Source: an uncultured Prevotellaceae bacterium (GTDB lineage: Bacteria; Bacteroidota; Bacteroidia; Bacteroidales; Bacteroidaceae). Taken from it: a stretch of 64,000 nt of DNA. Location of the stretch: the NCBI GenBank assembly GCA_900315095.1, contig OMXS01000010.1:38495-102494 (forward strand), given 5' to 3'. This document shows positions 15,842-55,181 of this stretch, piece by piece. Under the pieces are notes generated by a model that saw only the letters and a list, made by a program, of their open reading frames with translations, had not been told where the DNA came from and made no database searches. A program made the position numbers and the translations under genes. The stretch's first letter is position 1. Each line of letters begins with the position of its first letter.

Positions 15842-15973
15842 TTTCACTAAAAGGGTCGATTCGATTGCCAACTATGGGTGTTTGAGGATGCAAGAGATGG
15901 CTTTTCGCCTCCCAAAAGGTGCTTAATGGCATCCCCACTTATGGTCTTTCAGAAAGGAAAAGAGCGCTTTTGA
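15842..15973. repeat. Array E of the 22-23 bp intergenic repeat family
   Basis: Six consecutive degenerate 22-base units begin at 15842, 15864, 15886, 15908, 15930 and 15952. Well-preserved unit ends are GGTGTTTGA, GATGGCTTTTCG, GTGCTTAATGG and GAGCGCTTTTGA. The 345-base gap holding this array, between the lipoprotein start and lutC, contains no open reading frame of note. Confidence 0.6.
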
Positions 15974-24229: not shown

Positions 24230-24332
24230 CCCTGCTAAATTTCGTTCTAAAAAACAATAGTAGTAGGAGCAATAAAATATTCTTCCAGCATTACCACTTA
24301 TGCCTTATGGGCGAGTGAACAGGTACTAACCA

Positions 24333-24425
24333 CTATCTCACTTGTACCTCCTGACCATCTCACTTGTATACACTTGAGGATGCCAGAAGTGCTTCCTGAC
24401 AACCTCAGGAAGCACTTCTGGCATC
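24333..24425. repeat. Array A of the 22-23 bp intergenic repeat family, with hairpin
   Basis: Units at 24333 (22), 24355 (23), 24378 (22) and 24400 (22 bases) end CTCCTGA, ACACTTGA, CTTCCTGA and CTTCTGG. The last two are reverse complements of each other and give a perfect 21-base stem with a 5-base loop (24379-24425). This hairpin sits between convergent genes and probably terminates both. Confidence 0.75.
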
Positions 24426-24449
24426 TTAAAAAGATAGTTATGGCGGTTC

Positions 24450-27852: not shown

Positions 27853-27912
27853 GAGTTAGAAGTTAGGAGTTAAAAACAATGTTCAAAGATTAAAGTTTAA
27901 AGTTCAAAGTTA
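27846..27912. repeat. GGAGTTA and AAAGTTC microrepeats before thyA
   Basis: GGAGTTAGGAGTTAGAAGTT is followed by GTTCAAAG and TTTAAAGTTCAAAGTT. Both repeat types recur in other gaps of this window (38.65, 55.01 kb). The run ends right at the thyA ATG. Confidence 0.65.
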
Positions 27913-28708: not shown

Positions 28709-29193
28709 GGATTTCTATCATTGCTGCCGTAGCGCAAAACCGCGCCATCGGAAAGGACAACAAACTGATTTACTGGTTGCCAAACGACCTAAAACGATTT
28801 AAGCAACTGACCACCGGGCACACCATTATCATGGGCAGAAAGACCTTTGAGAGTCTGCCCAAAGGTGCCCTGCCTAACCGACGCAACATCGTTCTGACTC
28901 GCTCACAAGCCACATTCCCCGGTTGCGACACGTTCCGTTCGCTGAAAGAGGCGTTGAAGAACTGCCGCGAGGATGAAGACATATATATAATAGGTGGAGC
29001 GAGTGTCTATGCTCAGGCGTTGGAAGTGGCCGACCGTCTGTGCCTTACAGAAATTGCAGACACGCCTAATGATGCTGACACTTTCTTCCCTGACTATAGC
29101 GAATGGCACGAAGTGTGGCGCGAGGAACATGAGAAGGATGAGCGCCATGAACACTCTTACGCCTTCGTTGACTATGAACGGGATAGTCATTGA
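28705..29193 (+). CDS. folA: Dihydrofolate reductase
   Basis: A 162-residue enzyme opening [19 protein letters not shown]. It has the active-site aspartate in [22 protein letters not shown] and the [14 protein letters not shown] loop. It regenerates tetrahydrofolate after ThyA. The open frame extends upstream into thyA, but the overlapping ATG fits the family start. The last codons and stop lie inside the first unit of a 22-23 base repeat array, so the array forms the very end of this gene. Confidence 0.95.
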
Positions 29194-29270
29194 TGCTTAA
29201 TGAGAGTCCCATTGATGCCTAATGAGAGTGTCATTGATGCCTAATGGGAACGCGATTGATATACTTTTGA
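29181..29270. repeat. Array B of the 22-23 bp intergenic repeat family
   Basis: Units at 29181 (23), 29204 (22), 29226 (22) and 29248 (23 bases) share CATTGATGCCTAATGA-like cores; the second and third are nearly identical. The first unit overlaps the folA stop codon. Confidence 0.78.
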
Positions 29271-38605: not shown

Positions 38606-38645
38606 ATAATTGTGAGTTTATGATGTTTGTTTTCTTAGGAGTCAG

Positions 38646-38754
38646 GGAGTTATGGAGTTAAGGAGTTATGACATCAGTTTTGCTCTTTTCTCCTCTCTCT
38701 TAAGGAGTCTGGCATCTCGGAAGTGCTGTCTTAACTCCTTGACTCCATAACTCC
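38646..38754. repeat. Long inverted repeat made of GGAGTTA units
   Basis: A 23-base arm starting GGAGTTATGG and ending AAGGAGTTA is repeated in reverse complement 63 bases later with one mismatch. The arms consist of GGAGTTA-type microrepeats. It lies between tonB and the prenyl synthase gene on the reverse strand and probably ends the tonB message. Confidence 0.7.
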
Positions 38755-38774
38755 TAAACTCCTTTCCCTATGTG

Positions 38775-40622: not shown

Positions 40623-40712
40623 TTTTCGTCCACTCGCAACTCCCTGGTTTTCAAGAAGTACCAAATGGGGCAACAAAGTTAATAAGATTGTTCAACAAAG
40701 TTATTAACTTTG

Positions 40713-40800
40713 TCTCCTCACTTGTACCTCCTGACAACCTCACATGTGCTTCCTGACCATGCCATGAGTGCTTCCTGACACTCTCACTTGTACCTTTTGA
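40713..40800. repeat. Array C of the 22-23 bp intergenic repeat family
   Basis: Four units of exactly 22 bases start at 40713, 40735, 40757 and 40779. They end CTCCTGA, CTTCCTGA, CTTCCTGA and CTTTTGA. It lies between porQ and the cmk promoter, after a small palindrome (AAAGTTATTAACTTT). Confidence 0.82.
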
Positions 40801-40862
40801 CAAAACAAGGAGATAAAAGTGAAATAATAAAGTGCCAATTATGAGTTATCATTTTTTTTCAT

Positions 40863-40893: not shown

Positions 40894-41583
40894 ATGAAAA
40901 AGATTACTATCGCAATTGACGGGCACTCTTCGTGCGGAAAATCGACAATGGCTAAAGACCTTGCAAAAGCCATTGGATATGTATATGTTGACACCGGCGC
41001 CATGTACCGTGCCGTTACTCTCTATGCTCTGCGCAACAATCTCTATACCGAAGACGGCGAGATAATGACAGAGGAGCTGCAGGCAAAGATGCCGGAGGTA
41101 GAGATTTCGTTTAAGTTTAATGCTGAGACAGGCAAGCCCGACACATACCTTAACGGCGAACTGGTGGAAAAAGACATCCGCGGAATGGAGGTTTCAAACC
41201 GTGTGAGCGCCGTGGCGGCATTGCCATTTGTGCGCGAGGCACTCGTTGCTCAGCAGCAGCGCATGGGCAAGGAGAAAGGCATTGTGATGGACGGTCGCGA
41301 CATTGGAACCGTTGTTTTCCCTGATGCAGAACTTAAAGTCTTTGTCACGGCATCGGCAGAAGTGCGTGCCCAGCGCCGCTACGACGAACTGAAAGGCAAG
41401 GGAATGGAAGCTGATTACGACGAGATTCTGAAGAATGTGCAGGAGCGCGACTATCTTGACAGCCATCGTGAGGTGTCTCCTCTGCGCAAGGCAGATGATG
41501 CTTTAGAACTTGACAACAGCAACATGACCATTCCAGAGCAAAACGAATGGCTCATGGAAAGATACTTGGAGAAAGTGAAATAA
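40894..41583 (+). CDS. cmk: Cytidylate kinase
   Basis: A 229-residue enzyme with P-loop GHSSCGKST at residues 9-17. [34 protein letters not shown] and [15 protein letters not shown] also follow the Cmk pattern. It phosphorylates CMP and dCMP with ATP. This is the true Cmk; the protein encoded at 1.6 kb is only a distant relative. Confidence 0.96.
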
Positions 41584-41615
41584 TCGCGCTTTCTGCTTAA
41601 TGTAGAATGGAGAGT

Positions 41616-41697
41616 GTAGAATGGAGAATTATGATTACCTTTCAAGAACTTGCGCTTTAGCATGAATAATAGTTGTAATCACAATTCTCCATTCTAC
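41616..41697. terminator. Bidirectional hairpin between cmk and MATE
   Basis: GTAGAATGGAGAATT and its exact reverse complement flank about 52 bases. Additional copies of TGTAGAATGGAG flank the left arm, so the stem can slip. It lies between convergent genes. Confidence 0.65.
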
Positions 41698-41707
41698 ATT
41701 TTACATT

Positions 41708-43084
41708 CTACACTATTGTTTTCATCCACTTCCCTTTGAATATTCTAATAAGGAAAATGGTGCCACGGAACGTGAGTTCTATCGCCATTGCAAACCAGAC
41801 ACCTTGCAAACCGTAGCGCGGGGCAAGGTATGCTGCAAGCGTAAGACGTACAAGCCACATTGACCCAAGGTTCATCAAAGCGGGGCGAAGGGTATCTCCT
41901 GCACCTACGCATATGCTGTAACTAACTATGGCAGCAGCAAAGAAAGGCTCGGCAAACGCCTCTATGCGAAGCACGGTGGTACCCAATTGGCGTATCTCCT
42001 CTACAGGAGAAAGGAACCCAATCATCTCTGGCGCAAAGACAAACATCACCACTCCCATGAATGCCATCACTCCCATGCCGAGAAAAACGGTCATGCGGGC
42101 AAACGACTTGGCAAGACTGCTCTGTCCGGCACCTATGCTCTGCCCTACAAGTGTGGTCGCTGCCTCGCCAATTCCATATCCTGGCATATAGCAAAGACTC
42201 TCGGCTGTGACAGCAAACGAGTTGGCGGCAATGGAGAAAACGCCAAGTGGCGCCACGATTATTGTGCTCACAATCTGCGCTCCGCCCATAAGCATCGACT
42301 GTGCCGCCATCGGCGAAGCAATCTTTAGCGCGTTGCGAACGTAGTCGCCCACCCAACGGAAGGGTTCGTTGTCACGATTCAGAGCCAGTATCTTGCTTCG
42401 GAAAATCGCGAAATAGGCTTGTCCGAGCGCTCCAATGGTAACTGCTATTGCCGTTCCGATGGCCGCTCCAAGCACGCCAAAGCCGAAAACGAATATAAAG
42501 ATGTAGTTGAACGCCACGTCAAGGATGCACATCAGGATGCTCATAACACTCGGAATGCGCATGTCGCCAGAACTCTTTAGCATCGCGCCCGATAGGCTTG
42601 ACAACTGGAAAAAAGGCATAATGAACATGAACACCATAAAATATATGGTGGCATCGTGTGCTATTTCCTCCCCTCCCCCGAGCCAGTAAGGCAAATGGGG
42701 GCTGATGATGACTCCCGTAAGGGCAATGCAAAGGCTGAGAAGAAGTGTGCAGATGATGGAATGACGGAACACGGCGCGCGCCTTAACAAAGTCGTTTGCG
42801 CCAATGAAATGCGCTACCTGAACCGAGAAACCCATAGAGGTAGCACCCGTGATGCTGCCGAAAAGCCACGTAGAAGACTCAACAAGACCGATGCTCGCTG
42901 ACTCGTTGGCTCCAAGATGACCCACCATAGCGGCGTCGATGTAGAACATCAGCACGCTGGTCATCTGCGCAAGGATGCCAGGCACACTAAGAAGGACAAT
43001 CAGACTCATCTTCTGACCGCCCGACATCTGCTGCTTATTGCGTATCATCTCAAGCAGAGCGTCACTCTTCTTTTTTGAGAACAT
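41708..43084 (-). CDS. MATE family efflux transporter (second, divergent)
   Basis: A 458-residue protein with 12 hydrophobic segments in two MatE repeats (about 25-190 and 250-415). VPGILAQMTSVLMFYIDAAMVGHLGANESASIG is read in pieces as the first helices; PGYGIGEAATTLVGQSIGAG is the matching part of the second half. It differs clearly from the MATE protein at 0.1 kb, being nearer to the NorM/DinF branch. About 85 bases upstream on the same strand is a terminator that may close a short leader transcript. Confidence 0.9.
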   Translation of the reverse strand: MFSKKKSDALLEMIRNKQQMSGGQKMSLIVLLSVPGILAQMTSVLMFYIDAAMVGHLGANESASIGLVESSTWLFGSITGATSMGFSVQVAHFIGANDFVKARAVFRHSIICTLLLSLCIALTGVIISPHLPYWLGGGEEIAHDATIYFMVFMFIMPFFQLSSLSGAMLKSSGDMRIPSVMSILMCILDVAFNYIFIFVFGFGVLGAAIGTAIAVTIGALGQAYFAIFRSKILALNRDNEPFRWVGDYVRNALKIASPMAAQSMLMGGAQIVSTIIVAPLGVFSIAANSFAVTAESLCYMPGYGIGEAATTLVGQSIGAGQSSLAKSFARMTVFLGMGVMAFMGVVMFVFAPEMIGFLSPVEEIRQLGTTVLRIEAFAEPFFAAAIVSYSICVGAGDTLRPALMNLGSMWLVRLTLAAYLAPRYGLQGVWFAMAIELTFRGTIFLIRIFKGKWMKTIV

Positions 43085-46667: not shown

Positions 46668-47246
46668 ATGAAAAGAATGATTTATGTAGTTTCTTTGATA
46701 GCACTTGCCCTGCTGGTTTTCTCTTGCTGCTCTCTGAAGAAAGGCAAGGACGGCGGCAAGGGCGGAGATACCGATGTGGTAAATATCAACGATGTGAAGG
46801 TGACGCCTGAGGAAATGGTGACTCGATACCACTACTCTTCGTCGTCAGGAATGATGTGTTATACCGACGACAACGGCGAGAGATACACCAATGAAGGTGA
46901 AATGACGCTTGAGAAGACCGACAAAGGAGGCATGCTCTACTTAAGATACGAGTATGTGAAGCACGACTCTGTGGCCGTCGATGATGAGGTTTTCGAGCAT
47001 ATCAGCAAGTTGGTGAAGGCCTACAAACTCGAGGAGAACAGCGGAAGTTATACCGACTCAGACATGTTCGTGACTGATGTGGGGCCTTGGAGTTGCAGCG
47101 TCGAGCTTAAGAACGGCACGAGTGTCTTCGGCTCCGTCATAATGGCGTTCGAGGTGAAGGACAAGAAGCGCATGAAGAGATGCGACAATTTCGTAAAGGG
47201 AGTAAGCGCTATCAACTCCTACTTGCGCCCGATGATTAAGCATTAA
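46668..47246 (+). CDS. Lipoprotein paralogue of the preceding protein
   Basis: A 192-residue lipoprotein (LLVFSCCSL, modified cysteine near residue 20) whose domain matches its neighbour: SGMMCYTDDNGERYTNEGE, YKLEENSGSYTDSDMFVTDVG and VSAINSYLRPM. In place of the cysteine cluster it has a Lys-Gly-Asp stretch (KKGKDGGKGGD). The pair arose by tandem duplication, followed by change in the anchor and linker. Function unknown. Its stop is 11 bases before a repeat array. Confidence 0.75.
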   Translation: MKRMIYVVSLIALALLVFSCCSLKKGKDGGKGGDTDVVNINDVKVTPEEMVTRYHYSSSSGMMCYTDDNGERYTNEGEMTLEKTDKGGMLYLRYEYVKHDSVAVDDEVFEHISKLVKAYKLEENSGSYTDSDMFVTDVGPWSCSVELKNGTSVFGSVIMAFEVKDKKRMKRCDNFVKGVSAINSYLRPMIKH

Positions 47247-47257
47247 GTGGCAGCCGT

Positions 47258-47415
47258 CACTCTCTAAGACATGCTTTGGTACCGCGAAAGATGCCTTTTG
47301 ACGATGCCAGAGATGCCTTTTGACAACCTCATTGATATACATTTGACCACCTCAGAGGTATACATCTGACCACCTCAGAGGTATACATCTGGCACCCTCA
47401 AAGATATGTTTTTGG
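47258..47415. repeat. Array D of the 22-23 bp intergenic repeat family (seven units)
   Basis: Units begin at 47258, 47280, 47302 (22 bases each), 47324, 47347, 47370 and 47393 (23 bases each). The fifth and sixth differ only in their last base (ending ATACATCTGA and ATACATCTGG). A GGCACC/GGTGCC stem closes the last unit (47391-47421). The array fills about half of the 320-base gap before parC; the rest holds the parC promoter. Confidence 0.85.
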
Positions 47416-47522
47416 GGTGCCATTTCATATTGTATGCATACTTAGTGATTAAAAGTGGCGCCCTCAGAACACACGTTTTATACAAAAAAACATAATCTTT
47501 CGTTTGTTTCGAAGATTTTTAT

Positions 47523-47567: not shown

Positions 47568-50336
47568 ATGGACGACGATATAAAGGATATTACCCCAAAC
47601 GAAGAGAACGAAGCCGTGGAGGACGGCAACAACGAAGAGAACAACGAGGCTCAGGAAGAGCAGGAAGCCACTGACGACGTCACGAGTATCCACTCCGACT
47701 ACCGCCCCGTGAACCGTTTCGACGCCTCCGCGGTGCACCATCTGAGCGGAATGTACCAGAACTGGTTCCTCGATTACGCATCTTACGTAATCCTGGAGCG
47801 TGCCGTGCCACACATCGAGGACGGCTTGAAACCTGTTCAGAGACGCATTCTGCACTCGATGAAGCGTATGGATGACGGCCGTTATAATAAGGTGGCGAAC
47901 ATCGTGGGACACACAATGCAGTTCCACCCTCACGGCGATGCCTCCATCGGAGACGCCCTGGTGCAGCTCGGACAGAAAGACCTGCTGGTGGATACTCAAG
48001 GAAACTGGGGTAACATTCTTACCGGTTCGTCGGCAGCAGCACCACGATACATCGAGGCACGTCTGTCGAAATTCGCCCTCGATGTGGTGTTCAATCCCAA
48101 GACAACGGAGTGGAAGATGAGCTACGACGGGCGCAACAAGGAACCGATAACGCTGCCCGTGAAGTTCCCGCTGCTGCTGGCGCAAGGCGCAGAGGGCATC
48201 GCCGTAGGTCTTTCCTCAAAGATTCTGCCACATAACTTCAACGAACTGTGCGACGCCGCGATAAGTTATCTTCGCGGAGAGGACTTCGTGCTCTATCCCG
48301 ACTTCCCAACAAGCGGAAGCATAGACGTGTCGAAATATAACGACGGCCAGCGCGGAGGCTCGGTCAAGGTGCGCGCCAAGATAGAGAAACTCGACCAAAA
48401 GACGCTTGTCATCCGCGAGATACCGTTCTCCAAGACATCCGAGACGCTGCAGGACTCGATAGTGAAAGCCATCGAGAGAGGCAAGATAAAGGCGCGCAAG
48501 GTGGAAGACCTGACCGCCGCAGAGGTGGAGATTCAGGTGCATCTGGCGCCGGGAGTGTCGAGCGACAAGACAATAGACGCGCTCTATGCCTTCACCGATT
48601 GCGAGATAAGCCTGTCGCCCAACTGCTGCGTCATAGAGAACAACAAGCCCTGTTTCCTTACCGTTAGCGATGTGCTTCGCCATTCTGTCGACCGCACGAT
48701 GGCACTTCTGCGCAAGGAACTCGAGATACGTCGCGGCGAACTTGAGGAACAGTTGTTCTTCGCCTCGCTTGAGAAGATATTCATAGAGGAGCGCATCTAC
48801 AAGGACAAAGGCTTTGAAACGGCGGAGAATCTCGATAAGGTTGTGGCTCACATCGACAAGCGACTGGAGCCTTTCAAGCCAAAACTCATACGCGAGGTGA
48901 CACGCGACGACATCCTGCGTCTGCTGGAGATAAAGATGCAGCGCATACTGAAGTTCAGCAAAGACAAGGCTGACGAACTGATGGCCCGCATCAAGGCAGA
49001 GCTGAAGGAGATTGCTCACGACCTGGCGCACATGACCGATGTGACCATCAACTGGTTCACCTACGTCAAGGAGAAATACGGGAAAGACTTCCCACGCCGC
49101 ACCGAGATACGCAACTTCGACACCATCGAGGCGGCAAAGGTGGCAGAGGCCAACGAGAAACTCTACATCAACCGCACCGAAGGATTCATCGGAACGGGCT
49201 TGAAGAAGGACGAGTTCGTGTGCAACTGCTCCGACATCGACGACGTGATACTGTTCTATCGCGACGGAAAGTTCAAGGTGGTGAAGGTGGCAGAGAAGAT
49301 TTTCGTGGGCAAGAACGTTATCCACGTCGGCATATTCAAGCGCGGCGACAACCGTACCGTATATAATATGGTGTATCGCGACGGCAAGGCGGGAGCCTAC
49401 TACATCAAGAGATTCTCCATCCCTTCTGTAACCCGCGAGCGCGAATACGACACCACGAAGGGCACAGCGGGCAGCAAGGTGGTTTATTTCACAGCTAACC
49501 CGAACGGCGAGGCAGAGGTGATAAAGGTGGCTTTGCAGCCTTCTGCATTCCGCAAGAAACTCTTTATGGACAAGGATTTCAGCGAGATAAGCATCAAGGG
49601 ACGCGGCGCGGCAGGACGACTGCTGACGAAGGTGCCCGTGACACGCATCACCCTGAAGAGTCACGGACACTCTACGCTGGGCGGCCGCAAGGTGTGGTTC
49701 GACGAGGATGTTCAGCGACTGAACTACGACGAGCATGGACGCTATCTCGGAGAGTTCAACGACAACGACCAGATACTTGTGGTTCTCGACAACGGAGACT
49801 TCTATACAACAAACTTCGACCTTAACAACCACTACGAGACAAACATCAAGGTGATAGAGAAGTTCGACCCCAACAAGGTGTGGACGGCCGTGCTTTTCGA
49901 TGCAGAAAACAACGGTTATCTCTATCTGAAACGCTTCCTTTTCGACGCAAAGAAGAACAAGCAGAACTATCTCGGCACCGAAGGGGAGTCAAAGGCGGAA
50001 CTCCTGACCTGTCAGGTTTATCCTCGCGTGAAGGTAACCTTCGGCGGAGGCGACGCGTTCCGCGACCCGATGGAGATTGAGGCAGAGGAGTTTGTGGGCG
50101 TGAAAGGCTTCAAGGCTCACGGCAAACGCATCAGCACATGGACCATCGAGAAAGTTGAAGAACTCGAACCGCTACGCTTCCCTGAGCCAGAGAATGACGA
50201 GGAAGACGGCGAGAACGAAGAAACCGAAGCTGAGGAAACCGCTGGCGAGGAGGTTCAGTCAACCGATACGGAGCCGCAACCGAAGCATTTCGAGGACGAG
50301 ACAGGACAACTAAGCCTTTTCCCTGATGAAGAATAA
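47568..50336 (+). CDS. parC: DNA topoisomerase IV subunit A
   Basis: A 922-residue type IIA topoisomerase A subunit. An acidic N-terminal tail (about 1-40) precedes the breakage-reunion domain with catalytic R160-Y161 (SAAAPRYIEARL). A C-terminal propeller follows, and then a long acidic tail from about 870. The quinolone-pocket segment reads HPHGDASIGDALVQL, so the position matching E. coli ParC Ser80 is Ala125 and that of Glu84 is Asp129. The last residues include QLSLF (914-918), which looks like a sliding-clamp-binding peptide. parE is not in the window. Confidence 0.94.
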   Translation: MDDDIKDITPNEENEAVEDGNNEENNEAQEEQEATDDVTSIHSDYRPVNRFDASAVHHLSGMYQNWFLDYASYVILERAVPHIEDGLKPVQRRILHSMKRMDDGRYNKVANIVGHTMQFHPHGDASIGDALVQLGQKDLLVDTQGNWGNILTGSSAAAPRYIEARLSKFALDVVFNPKTTEWKMSYDGRNKEPITLPVKFPLLLAQGAEGIAVGLSSKILPHNFNELCDAAISYLRGEDFVLYPDFPTSGSIDVSKYNDGQRGGSVKVRAKIEKLDQKTLVIREIPFSKTSETLQDSIVKAIERGKIKARKVEDLTAAEVEIQVHLAPGVSSDKTIDALYAFTDCEISLSPNCCVIENNKPCFLTVSDVLRHSVDRTMALLRKELEIRRGELEEQLFFASLEKIFIEERIYKDKGFETAENLDKVVAHIDKRLEPFKPKLIREVTRDDILRLLEIKMQRILKFSKDKADELMARIKAELKEIAHDLAHMTDVTINWFTYVKEKYGKDFPRRTEIRNFDTIEAAKVAEANEKLYINRTEGFIGTGLKKDEFVCNCSDIDDVILFYRDGKFKVVKVAEKIFVGKNVIHVGIFKRGDNRTVYNMVYRDGKAGAYYIKRFSIPSVTREREYDTTKGTAGSKVVYFTANPNGEAEVIKVALQPSAFRKKLFMDKDFSEISIKGRGAAGRLLTKVPVTRITLKSHGHSTLGGRKVWFDEDVQRLNYDEHGRYLGEFNDNDQILVVLDNGDFYTTNFDLNNHYETNIKVIEKFDPNKVWTAVLFDAENNGYLYLKRFLFDAKKNKQNYLGTEGESKAELLTCQVYPRVKVTFGGGDAFRDPMEIEAEEFVGVKGFKAHGKRISTWTIEKVEELEPLRFPEPENDEEDGENEETEAEETAGEEVQSTDTEPQPKHFEDETGQLSLFPDEE

Positions 50337-54996: not shown

Positions 54997-55003
54997 ATAA
55001 CTT

Positions 55004-55035
55004 TGAACTTTGAACTTTGAACTTTGAACTTTGCG
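55004..55035. repeat. TTTGAAC heptamer tandem repeat
   Basis: CTTTGAA repeats about four times (ACTTTGAACTTTGAACTTTG in part), directly before the STAS gene on the reverse strand. Confidence 0.8.
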
Positions 55036-55173
55036 CTCGGCTCTGCCGCTTTCACAAAGCGAAGCGACTGAAAGAACATTGCGCTCGGCTCTGCCGCTTT
55101 CACAAAGCGAAGCGACTGAAAGAACTTTGCGCTCGGCTCTGCCGCTTTCACAAAGCGAAGCGACTGAAAGAAC
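55031..55173. repeat. 48-base tandem repeat, three copies
   Basis: Copies at 55031-55077, 55079-55125 and 55127-55173 are identical over 47 bases and differ only in the single joining base. Each starts TTGCGCTCGGCTCTGCCGC and ends GCGACTGAAAGAAC. The period is a multiple of three, so a peptide repeat (SVASLCESGRAER) appears in the reverse frame. It is upstream of the STAS start and probably not translated. Confidence 0.92.
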
Positions 55174-55181
55174 ATTTAACT

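Follow-up and report, generated by a model that had tools for sequence, protein, structure and literature searches.

A 64,000-nt stretch of the genome of an uncultured Prevotellaceae bacterium (contig OMXS01000010.1; hereafter the window) carries intergenic tandem arrays of short degenerate units, and these arrays represent, in this lineage, a wider class of repeats that have unrelated sequences and whose period, with few exceptions, is 22 bp (22 or 23 bp in the lineage of the window). A preliminary description of the window had reported five arrays as one family and overlooked this larger point, namely that a 22-bp period is common to the GTDB family, to which Prevotella also belongs, by way of unrelated sequences, as a lag test of intergenic DNA revealed. 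We found no description of such arrays in the open literature searched.

A 22-bp period common to unrelated repeats

The lag test is model-free: in intergenic DNA, lags from 8 to 60 are compared by the matches counted in 40; the counts exclude lags below 8, lags that are multiples of a shorter one, matches in low-complexity sequence and any gap containing N. The initial test returned lag 22 also in relatives without the repeat family of the window. A larger sample came from 12 other genomes in this GTDB family, with the gene caller retrained for each, and comprised 447 gaps with 158 kb of intergenic sequence. Lag 22 occurred in 31 of these gaps, from nine of the 12 genomes, while lag 21 occurred in two gaps and lag 23 in one; any other lag from 8 to 60 was found in at most three gaps, and Markov copies gave none at lag 22. 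Lag 22 ranked first at all thresholds from 24 to 30 of 40. Seven control samples, six from Bacteroidales belonging to other families and one from Escherichia coli (34.5 kb in all), gave no lag-22 gap against about seven predicted from the family rate; small or N-rich samples from other families (G227, G228, G233, G235, G237 and G238) stand outside this control group, and their sole lag-22 match is a run of N.

The 31 arrays fall into 18 sequence clusters, all but two of which are confined to one genome; the shared clusters join G056 with G092 and G005 with G056. Circular dyad symmetry was detected at p < 0.05 in 17 of the 31 arrays (mean z 2.2), as against 6 of 150 random 22-mers (mean z 0.1), a null that is slightly unlike real arrays in that the random 22-mers are exact copies. 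In the dyad-symmetric units, which account for about half of the sampled arrays, half-sites alternate about every 11 bp. The basic step of 11 bp that had been suggested for the window is thus upheld for the wider class, as circular dyad symmetry whose two axes lie 11 bp from each other within the period of 22 bp; in the window's own family the symmetry is weak. Outside the source genome of the window, two of 51 classified arrays lie inside a called gene, and 19 of 25 arrays between co-directional genes are closer to the stop (p 0.003; the 25 are those of 29 with distances below 800 bp).

Three families were traced genome-wide, and among the genomes compared each is dispersed at many loci and confined to one or a few close species. 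In G008, from another genus, the consensus is a perfect palindrome, CGTCAAACAATATTGTTTGACG, with at least 113 blast matches in G008 and, among the matches listed, none in seven other genomes. Exact pairs of its core at a 22-bp distance number 37, and the reversed pattern has none; a looser pattern gave 287 against 181 for the reversed control, a high control value that we think comes from a second dyad axis fitting the reversed pattern. The unit found in G092 and G056, GCAC-N5-GTGC, has at least 54 and at least 52 matches, respectively, and none in six other genomes among the matches listed. Up to 75 bp, the only distances at which strict sites pair are 22, 44 and 66 bp, both in G008 (27, 17 and 6 pairs) and in the combined G092 and G056 loci (12, 5 and 1), many of these loci having been fetched by similarity to a 22-bp consensus, which favours 22-bp pairing.

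The matches are unevenly spread along some contigs. One of the 37 exact site pairs of G008 lies within C1:1.82-2.91 Mb, a stretch that may hold the replication terminus, and the sampled GC skew switches sign between 1.6 and 2.4 Mb. Among the matches listed, there are none at 0.71 to 1.37 Mb on C2 of G056, and two of 12 places on C1 of G092 are below 0.8 Mb; the sampled skews, which cover C1 contigs only, do not place the G092 gap at a terminus. A nucleoid-occlusion-like depletion at the terminus of G008 was considered and set aside as post hoc.

The family of the window

In the source genome, the unit consists of an 11-bp box, TGA-N5-TCA (often TGACCACCTCA), and a spacer of 11 or 12 bp; the consensus in the preliminary description was roughly right and out of phase with this unit. 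The 11-bp spacers have middles such as GTGCC or GTGCT, the 12-bp spacers have an RTATAY middle in 52 of the 53 units of 23 bp, and arrays mix both lengths (95 units of 22 bp, 53 of 23 bp). Across 241 kb of loci from this genome, perfect boxes within 80 bp of each other are spaced only by 22 (42 cases), 23 (41), 44-46 (50) or 66-69 bp (22), and when one mismatch per box is allowed, two units of 21 bp and two of 24 bp appear against 148 of 22 or 23 bp. Spacers recur as a few types, unlike the unique spacers of clustered regularly interspaced short palindromic repeats (CRISPR).

We built a sequence-only profile, R1, of three boxes and two spacers from 53 rows of the source genome, searched the window with it unfiltered and took repeat periods from Tandem Repeats Finder (TRF). 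The features considered in the window are as follows.

47292..47419, + strand: largest array; R1 37.4 and 18.2 bits plus weaker matches; TRF 23 bp x 3.1
40710..40808, + strand: array of the same family; R1 40.9 and 24.2 bits (40714-40803)
24330..24429, + strand: array of the same family; R1 40.6 and 22.5 bits (24332-24424)
29188..29260, + strand: 22-bp tandem repeat of different sequence; TRF 22 bp x 3.3, score 97
40671..40713, + strand: second, unrelated palindromic family with a 22-bp period (CAACAAAGTTAATAACATTGTT x 2; AACAAAGTTAATAACTTTGTT type); TRF
15842..15973, no strand: array claimed earlier, unsupported; no TRF row with a period of 20-24 and no R1 match

R1 therefore confirms three of the five claimed arrays, those at 24.3, 40.7 and 47.3 kb, as one family; the fourth, at 29.2 kb, is a real repeat of other sequence, and at 15842-15973 one decayed unit at most can be read by eye. 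The R1 scores of the three arrays are not independent, because these arrays gave five of the 53 model rows; elsewhere in the window the top match is 8.5 bits. Perfect-box pairs at 22 or 23 bp number two in the window against none in 20 second-order Markov copies, and a blast search with 47250-47425 alone found 45 places in the source genome.

The 47.3 kb array (boxes at 47299, 47321, 47344, 47367 and 47390) holds three 23-bp units of the RTATAY type and lies between co-directional genes, one ending at 47246 and the next starting at 47568; its ortholog in the sister species Prevotella sp. UBA4330 (G239) is about two units shorter. The 40.7 kb array has boxes at 40710, 40732, 40754 and 40776, a weak one at 40798 and a gene downstream at 40894, and about two of its units are absent from the G239 ortholog. 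At 24.3 kb, where G239 has the array too, a 21-bp perfect inverted repeat is centred on a box (24379-24425). The 29.2 kb repeat keeps the TGA-N5-TCA frame (boxes TGAGAGTCCCA and TGAGAGTGTCA) and reaches just 3.3 bits with R1; in the ortholog alignment, G239 has no array there. The palindromic family at 40671-40713 adjoins the 40.7 kb array, and relatives of its sequence occur at many places in G239 and in a further genome, G240, where they include 22-bp x 3 arrays.

The profile scan that had been proposed as a check bears the family out. R1 gives 139 matches, grouped into 76 arrays, in the source genome (also the source of the model), against none or one per genome in 238 relatives: at E 0.01, under stricter filters that lower the source genome's count to 44, there were none in 200 other genomes of the same family, and five of 38 further relatives had one match each (E 0.04 to 0.09), which we regard as background. 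R1 matches do occur in UBA4330 (105), Prevotella RGIG7809 (18) and Prevotellaceae RUG11392 (2). A pattern scan of 84,980 genomes, from which the records closest to the source genome may be excluded by design, returned 20 stretches, 17 in UBA4330 and one each in RGIG7809, RUG11392 and a Treponema; the last is another tandem array and not a member of this family. It lies in a metagenome-assembled genome of Treponema sp., from another phylum (JAITAN010000154.1, L086:380-660), and is palindromic-looking, with units of about 22-23 bp (TGAGAGGATCACATAGCTATATG type). Viral contigs, scanned with one pattern, gave no match.

Genes in the source genome were called with a purpose-made codon-usage caller, which left eight of the 76 arrays without a called gene on one side, and none of the 76 lies inside a called gene. 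Between co-directional genes, 24 of 31 arrays are closer to the upstream stop than to the start (p 0.003; of 37 such arrays, these 31 had both distances below 700 bp), and the strand of the array is that of the genes in 14 of the 31, i.e., the arrays are strand-neutral. There are 21 arrays in convergent gaps and 10 in divergent ones, which is not significant against background gaps (p 0.23).

Other repeats were also seen. About 120 bp at 41598-41718 of the window, containing short 7-bp repeats, are repeated at several positions in G239 and G240; at 55026-55176, TRF reports 3.1 tandem copies of a 48-bp unit with 97% identity; and it finds tandem arrays of 7 or 8 bp at 27877-27911, 54999-55033, 38638-38764 and elsewhere, lag 7 being common too in the intergenic DNA of the source genome, G239 and G240. 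Many copies of a longer repeat that includes the palindrome GTGATTAGGGCCTAATCAC, which varies in some of them, carry an array (loci L020, L027 and L028; in UBA4330, L081-L083, L087, L088, L092 and L097).

Possible origins and functions of the arrays

Judging from sequence and placement, we read the arrays, tentatively and with somewhat less than even confidence, as rows of adjoining sites, each two helical turns long, for a dimeric DNA-binding protein that diverges fast; among the earlier proposals, a phased protein-binding array is accordingly the one we prefer. Neighbouring dimers of such a protein would line up along the same face of the helix close to transcript ends, and the protein might serve as an insulator, a supercoil buffer or a nucleoid organiser. 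Its specificity would diverge fast, such that the repeat sequence would be replaced between species and the step kept; copy number would shift through unequal exchange or slippage between units, and dispersal could proceed partly through longer elements containing the array, akin to miniature inverted-repeat transposable elements (MITEs). The regular step, the dyad symmetry with little hairpin covariation, the strand neutrality and the stop-side placement fit this reading.

Several observations weigh against it. The consensus units of the source genome are weakly dyad-symmetric, and their CTT type has no symmetry; no array-binding protein was identified; arrays in G008 and some in the source genome sit in longer repeats, as a selfish element would; repeat families are not always private, because one cluster joins G005 and G056; and the GTAA-N5-TTAC sites of G150 are 22 bp apart in two of six pairs, with distances of 25, 47, 50 and 72 bp also seen. 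The comparison with G239, for which 27 of the 76 arrays could be placed by both flanks within fetched loci, points in the same direction: substitutions amount to 15.1% in arrays (316/2094) and 18.4% in flanks (936/5097), which does not demonstrate purifying selection, and arrays and flanks have the same ratio of small indels to substitutions (6/316 and 17/936, respectively). The earlier proposal that the kept unit length reflects selection on spacing finds no support in these equal indel rates, a comparison of low power given six small array indels. Box arms differ by 10%, spacers by 14% and the N5 core by 20-22%; as the boxes were chosen by those letters, we rejected a constraint on the box arms, which is suggestive and biased by box selection.

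The main alternative, which we hold to be only slightly less probable, is that the arrays are selfish or neutral minisatellites, palindromic tandem units in or derived from MITE-like elements and changed by slippage, with a 22-bp step set by the copying mechanism and not by any benefit to the cell. The near-neutral substitution and indel rates would be expected of such repeats, as would the length differences of more than 12 bp between the source genome and G239 (20, 22, 23, 23, 23, 44, 44, 46, 88 and 93 bp), which are mostly whole units; flank length differences include 21-23 and 43-45 bp, which we think are units past the profile borders, together with other sizes. One array, C41:10546, has no counterpart in G239. 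Flank matches of at least 40 bp to other loci were found for 18 of the 76 arrays (0 of 72 for control sequences 850-1100 bp away) and for all 22 G008 arrays of at least three units, and the BrickBuilt minisatellite, as described, provides a precedent with leader, tail and terminal inverted repeats (TIRs) (PMC4596501). Slippage, however, should yield arbitrary periods, yet nearly all arrays of the 18 clusters share a period of 22; across 15 middle units of G008, the dyad is better kept than the spacers (pairwise identity 0.84 vs 0.51); and among the loci compared, no shared flank was seen in 58 of the 76 arrays or in 16 of 18 from G092 and G056, the remaining two matching each other. The shared flanks also suit a decayed replicating element, which had been proposed earlier and which accounts for only part of the data. 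A mixture, in which selfish elements carried arrays that were later used by the cell, is possible.

Hairpins at transcript ends, formed by RNA or single-stranded DNA and acting as terminators or mRNA stabilisers, would explain the stop-side placement, and palindromic candidate RNAs restricted to Bacteroidetes have been catalogued, according to the published account (PMC8040213). Some arrays do fold well: the fold z is -8.4 for 24325-24440, yet only -0.3 to -3.8 for six other folded arrays. G008 has one covarying pair of positions, and a subset of 66 non-CTT units of the source genome pairs above shuffles (116 vs 104; 43 of 2000 shuffles), but overall arm complementarity in the source genome is no higher than in shuffles on either axis (22-bp units, 119 observed vs 119.6 expected; 23-bp units, 52 vs 59.9; across the box, 112 vs 111.7), and the G092 and G056 units show no excess either (102 vs 100.3). 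The strand neutrality also argues against hairpins, an RNA would not require an exact 22-bp step, and Rfam at the gathering score gave a tRNA alone in the window. The transcript-end structure proposed earlier is weakened accordingly, and we consider it unlikely.

Bacteroidetes promoters have the -7 box TAnnTTTG, which is resembled by TACATTTG/TACATCTG within the 23-bp unit. The arrays might then be mobile promoters with promoter elements in their units, as BrickBuilt is reported to be, a quite improbable reading given that the arrays are closer to stops than to starts; the units of other families also look different by eye. Least probable is a system of repetitive extragenic palindromes (REPs) moved by their Y1-type REP-associated tyrosine transposase (RAYT): the arrays are species-specific, palindromic, extragenic and high-copy, as described for REPs (PMC2817692), and Y1_Tnp matches occur once in the source genome, once in G239 and twice in G240, but no R1 array lies in the 6 to 9 kb around three RAYT loci (source genome, G239 and, of two in G240, the weaker match, the stronger one being on C29), these loci carry a different repeat of the GGGC..ACAC..GCCCCTAC type, and genome G241 has two R1 matches and no Y1_Tnp match.

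The RAYT-like Y1 transposase gene of the source genome (L146:3849-4388, on C26) has GGGCGCACAC..GCCCCTAC-type repeats upstream only, its G239 counterpart (L147) has them on both sides, and in G240 (L148) the gene is flanked by diverged copies (GGGCTAACAC..GCCCCTAC), an arrangement expected if REP and RAYT co-evolve. Some arrays (L020 and L027) have copies of the repeat next to them as well.

Returning to the dimer-site reading, we put forward with real hesitation the broader proposition that the whole family keeps contiguous 22-bp dyad units near gene ends and replaces their sequence by lineage, the units being either read by a fast-diverging chromosomal protein bound side by side or made by a 22-bp copying enzyme. 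If true, the arrays would form a new class of chromosomal element in which step length is conserved and sequence is not; such a class, defined by period and symmetry, is easily missed because extragenic repeats are usually recognised by sequence. A family-wide 22-bp rule would imply shared machinery, be it a protein that binds in two-turn register or a copying activity of fixed step, and each lineage would supply a natural bait for it. Such a rule would also explain some of the intergenic sequence in rumen and gut bacteria, and the arrays could serve as strain-typing loci.

Comparison with known systems

Plasmid iterons are direct repeats of about 22 bp, or two helical turns, and are bound by protein. 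Unlike iterons, the arrays occur at dozens of chromosomal loci, and neither the window array nor the G008 element has a match in plasmid or phage collections. Exact contiguous 22-bp units are not known as the plan of REPs, and the RAYT genes at the three loci of this lineage are accompanied by a repeat other than the arrays. As described, REPs and bacterial interspersed mosaic elements do resemble the arrays in being palindromic (weakly so in the window's family), extragenic, high-copy, species-specific and regularly spaced (PMC2817692). PINSR, a 188-bp repeat of Prevotella intermedia and Prevotella nigrescens, is likewise described as intergenic, lineage-specific and high-copy, without TIR and with positions mostly conserved between strains; by that description it is set apart as a single 188-bp repeat that forms no tandem array (PMC4755523).

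Of the systems described so far, the nearest to the arrays is BrickBuilt, a minisatellite of Porphyromonas gingivalis reported as intergenic 23-nt units without spacers, with a leader and a tail and with whole-unit changes between strains (PMC4596501). According to that report, BrickBuilt shares with the window's family a tandem, imperfect, spacer-free structure, an intergenic location at many loci (0 of 76 arrays in genes in the source genome, two of 51 elsewhere) and restriction to a lineage; copy number changes by whole units in both, between strains in BrickBuilt and mostly so between sister species here. Its leader and tail place the array in a longer sequence, as in G008, and its consensus is circularly dyad-symmetric by our own computation (p 0.006). 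BrickBuilt flanks are described as carrying the TIR of an IS5-type element; TIRs and target-site duplications were not found by eye around the arrays, no systematic search having been made. The BrickBuilt consensus, AGAYCATARTATCCTCTCRTRTG, is no more similar to the units of the window's family or of the other families than shuffled units are. BrickBuilt has a 23-nt unit where the window's family mixes 22 and 23 bp and the other families are nearly all at 22 bp, and it differs further from the class described here, in which most arrays of the source genome have no shared flanks seen and many unrelated families keep one period.
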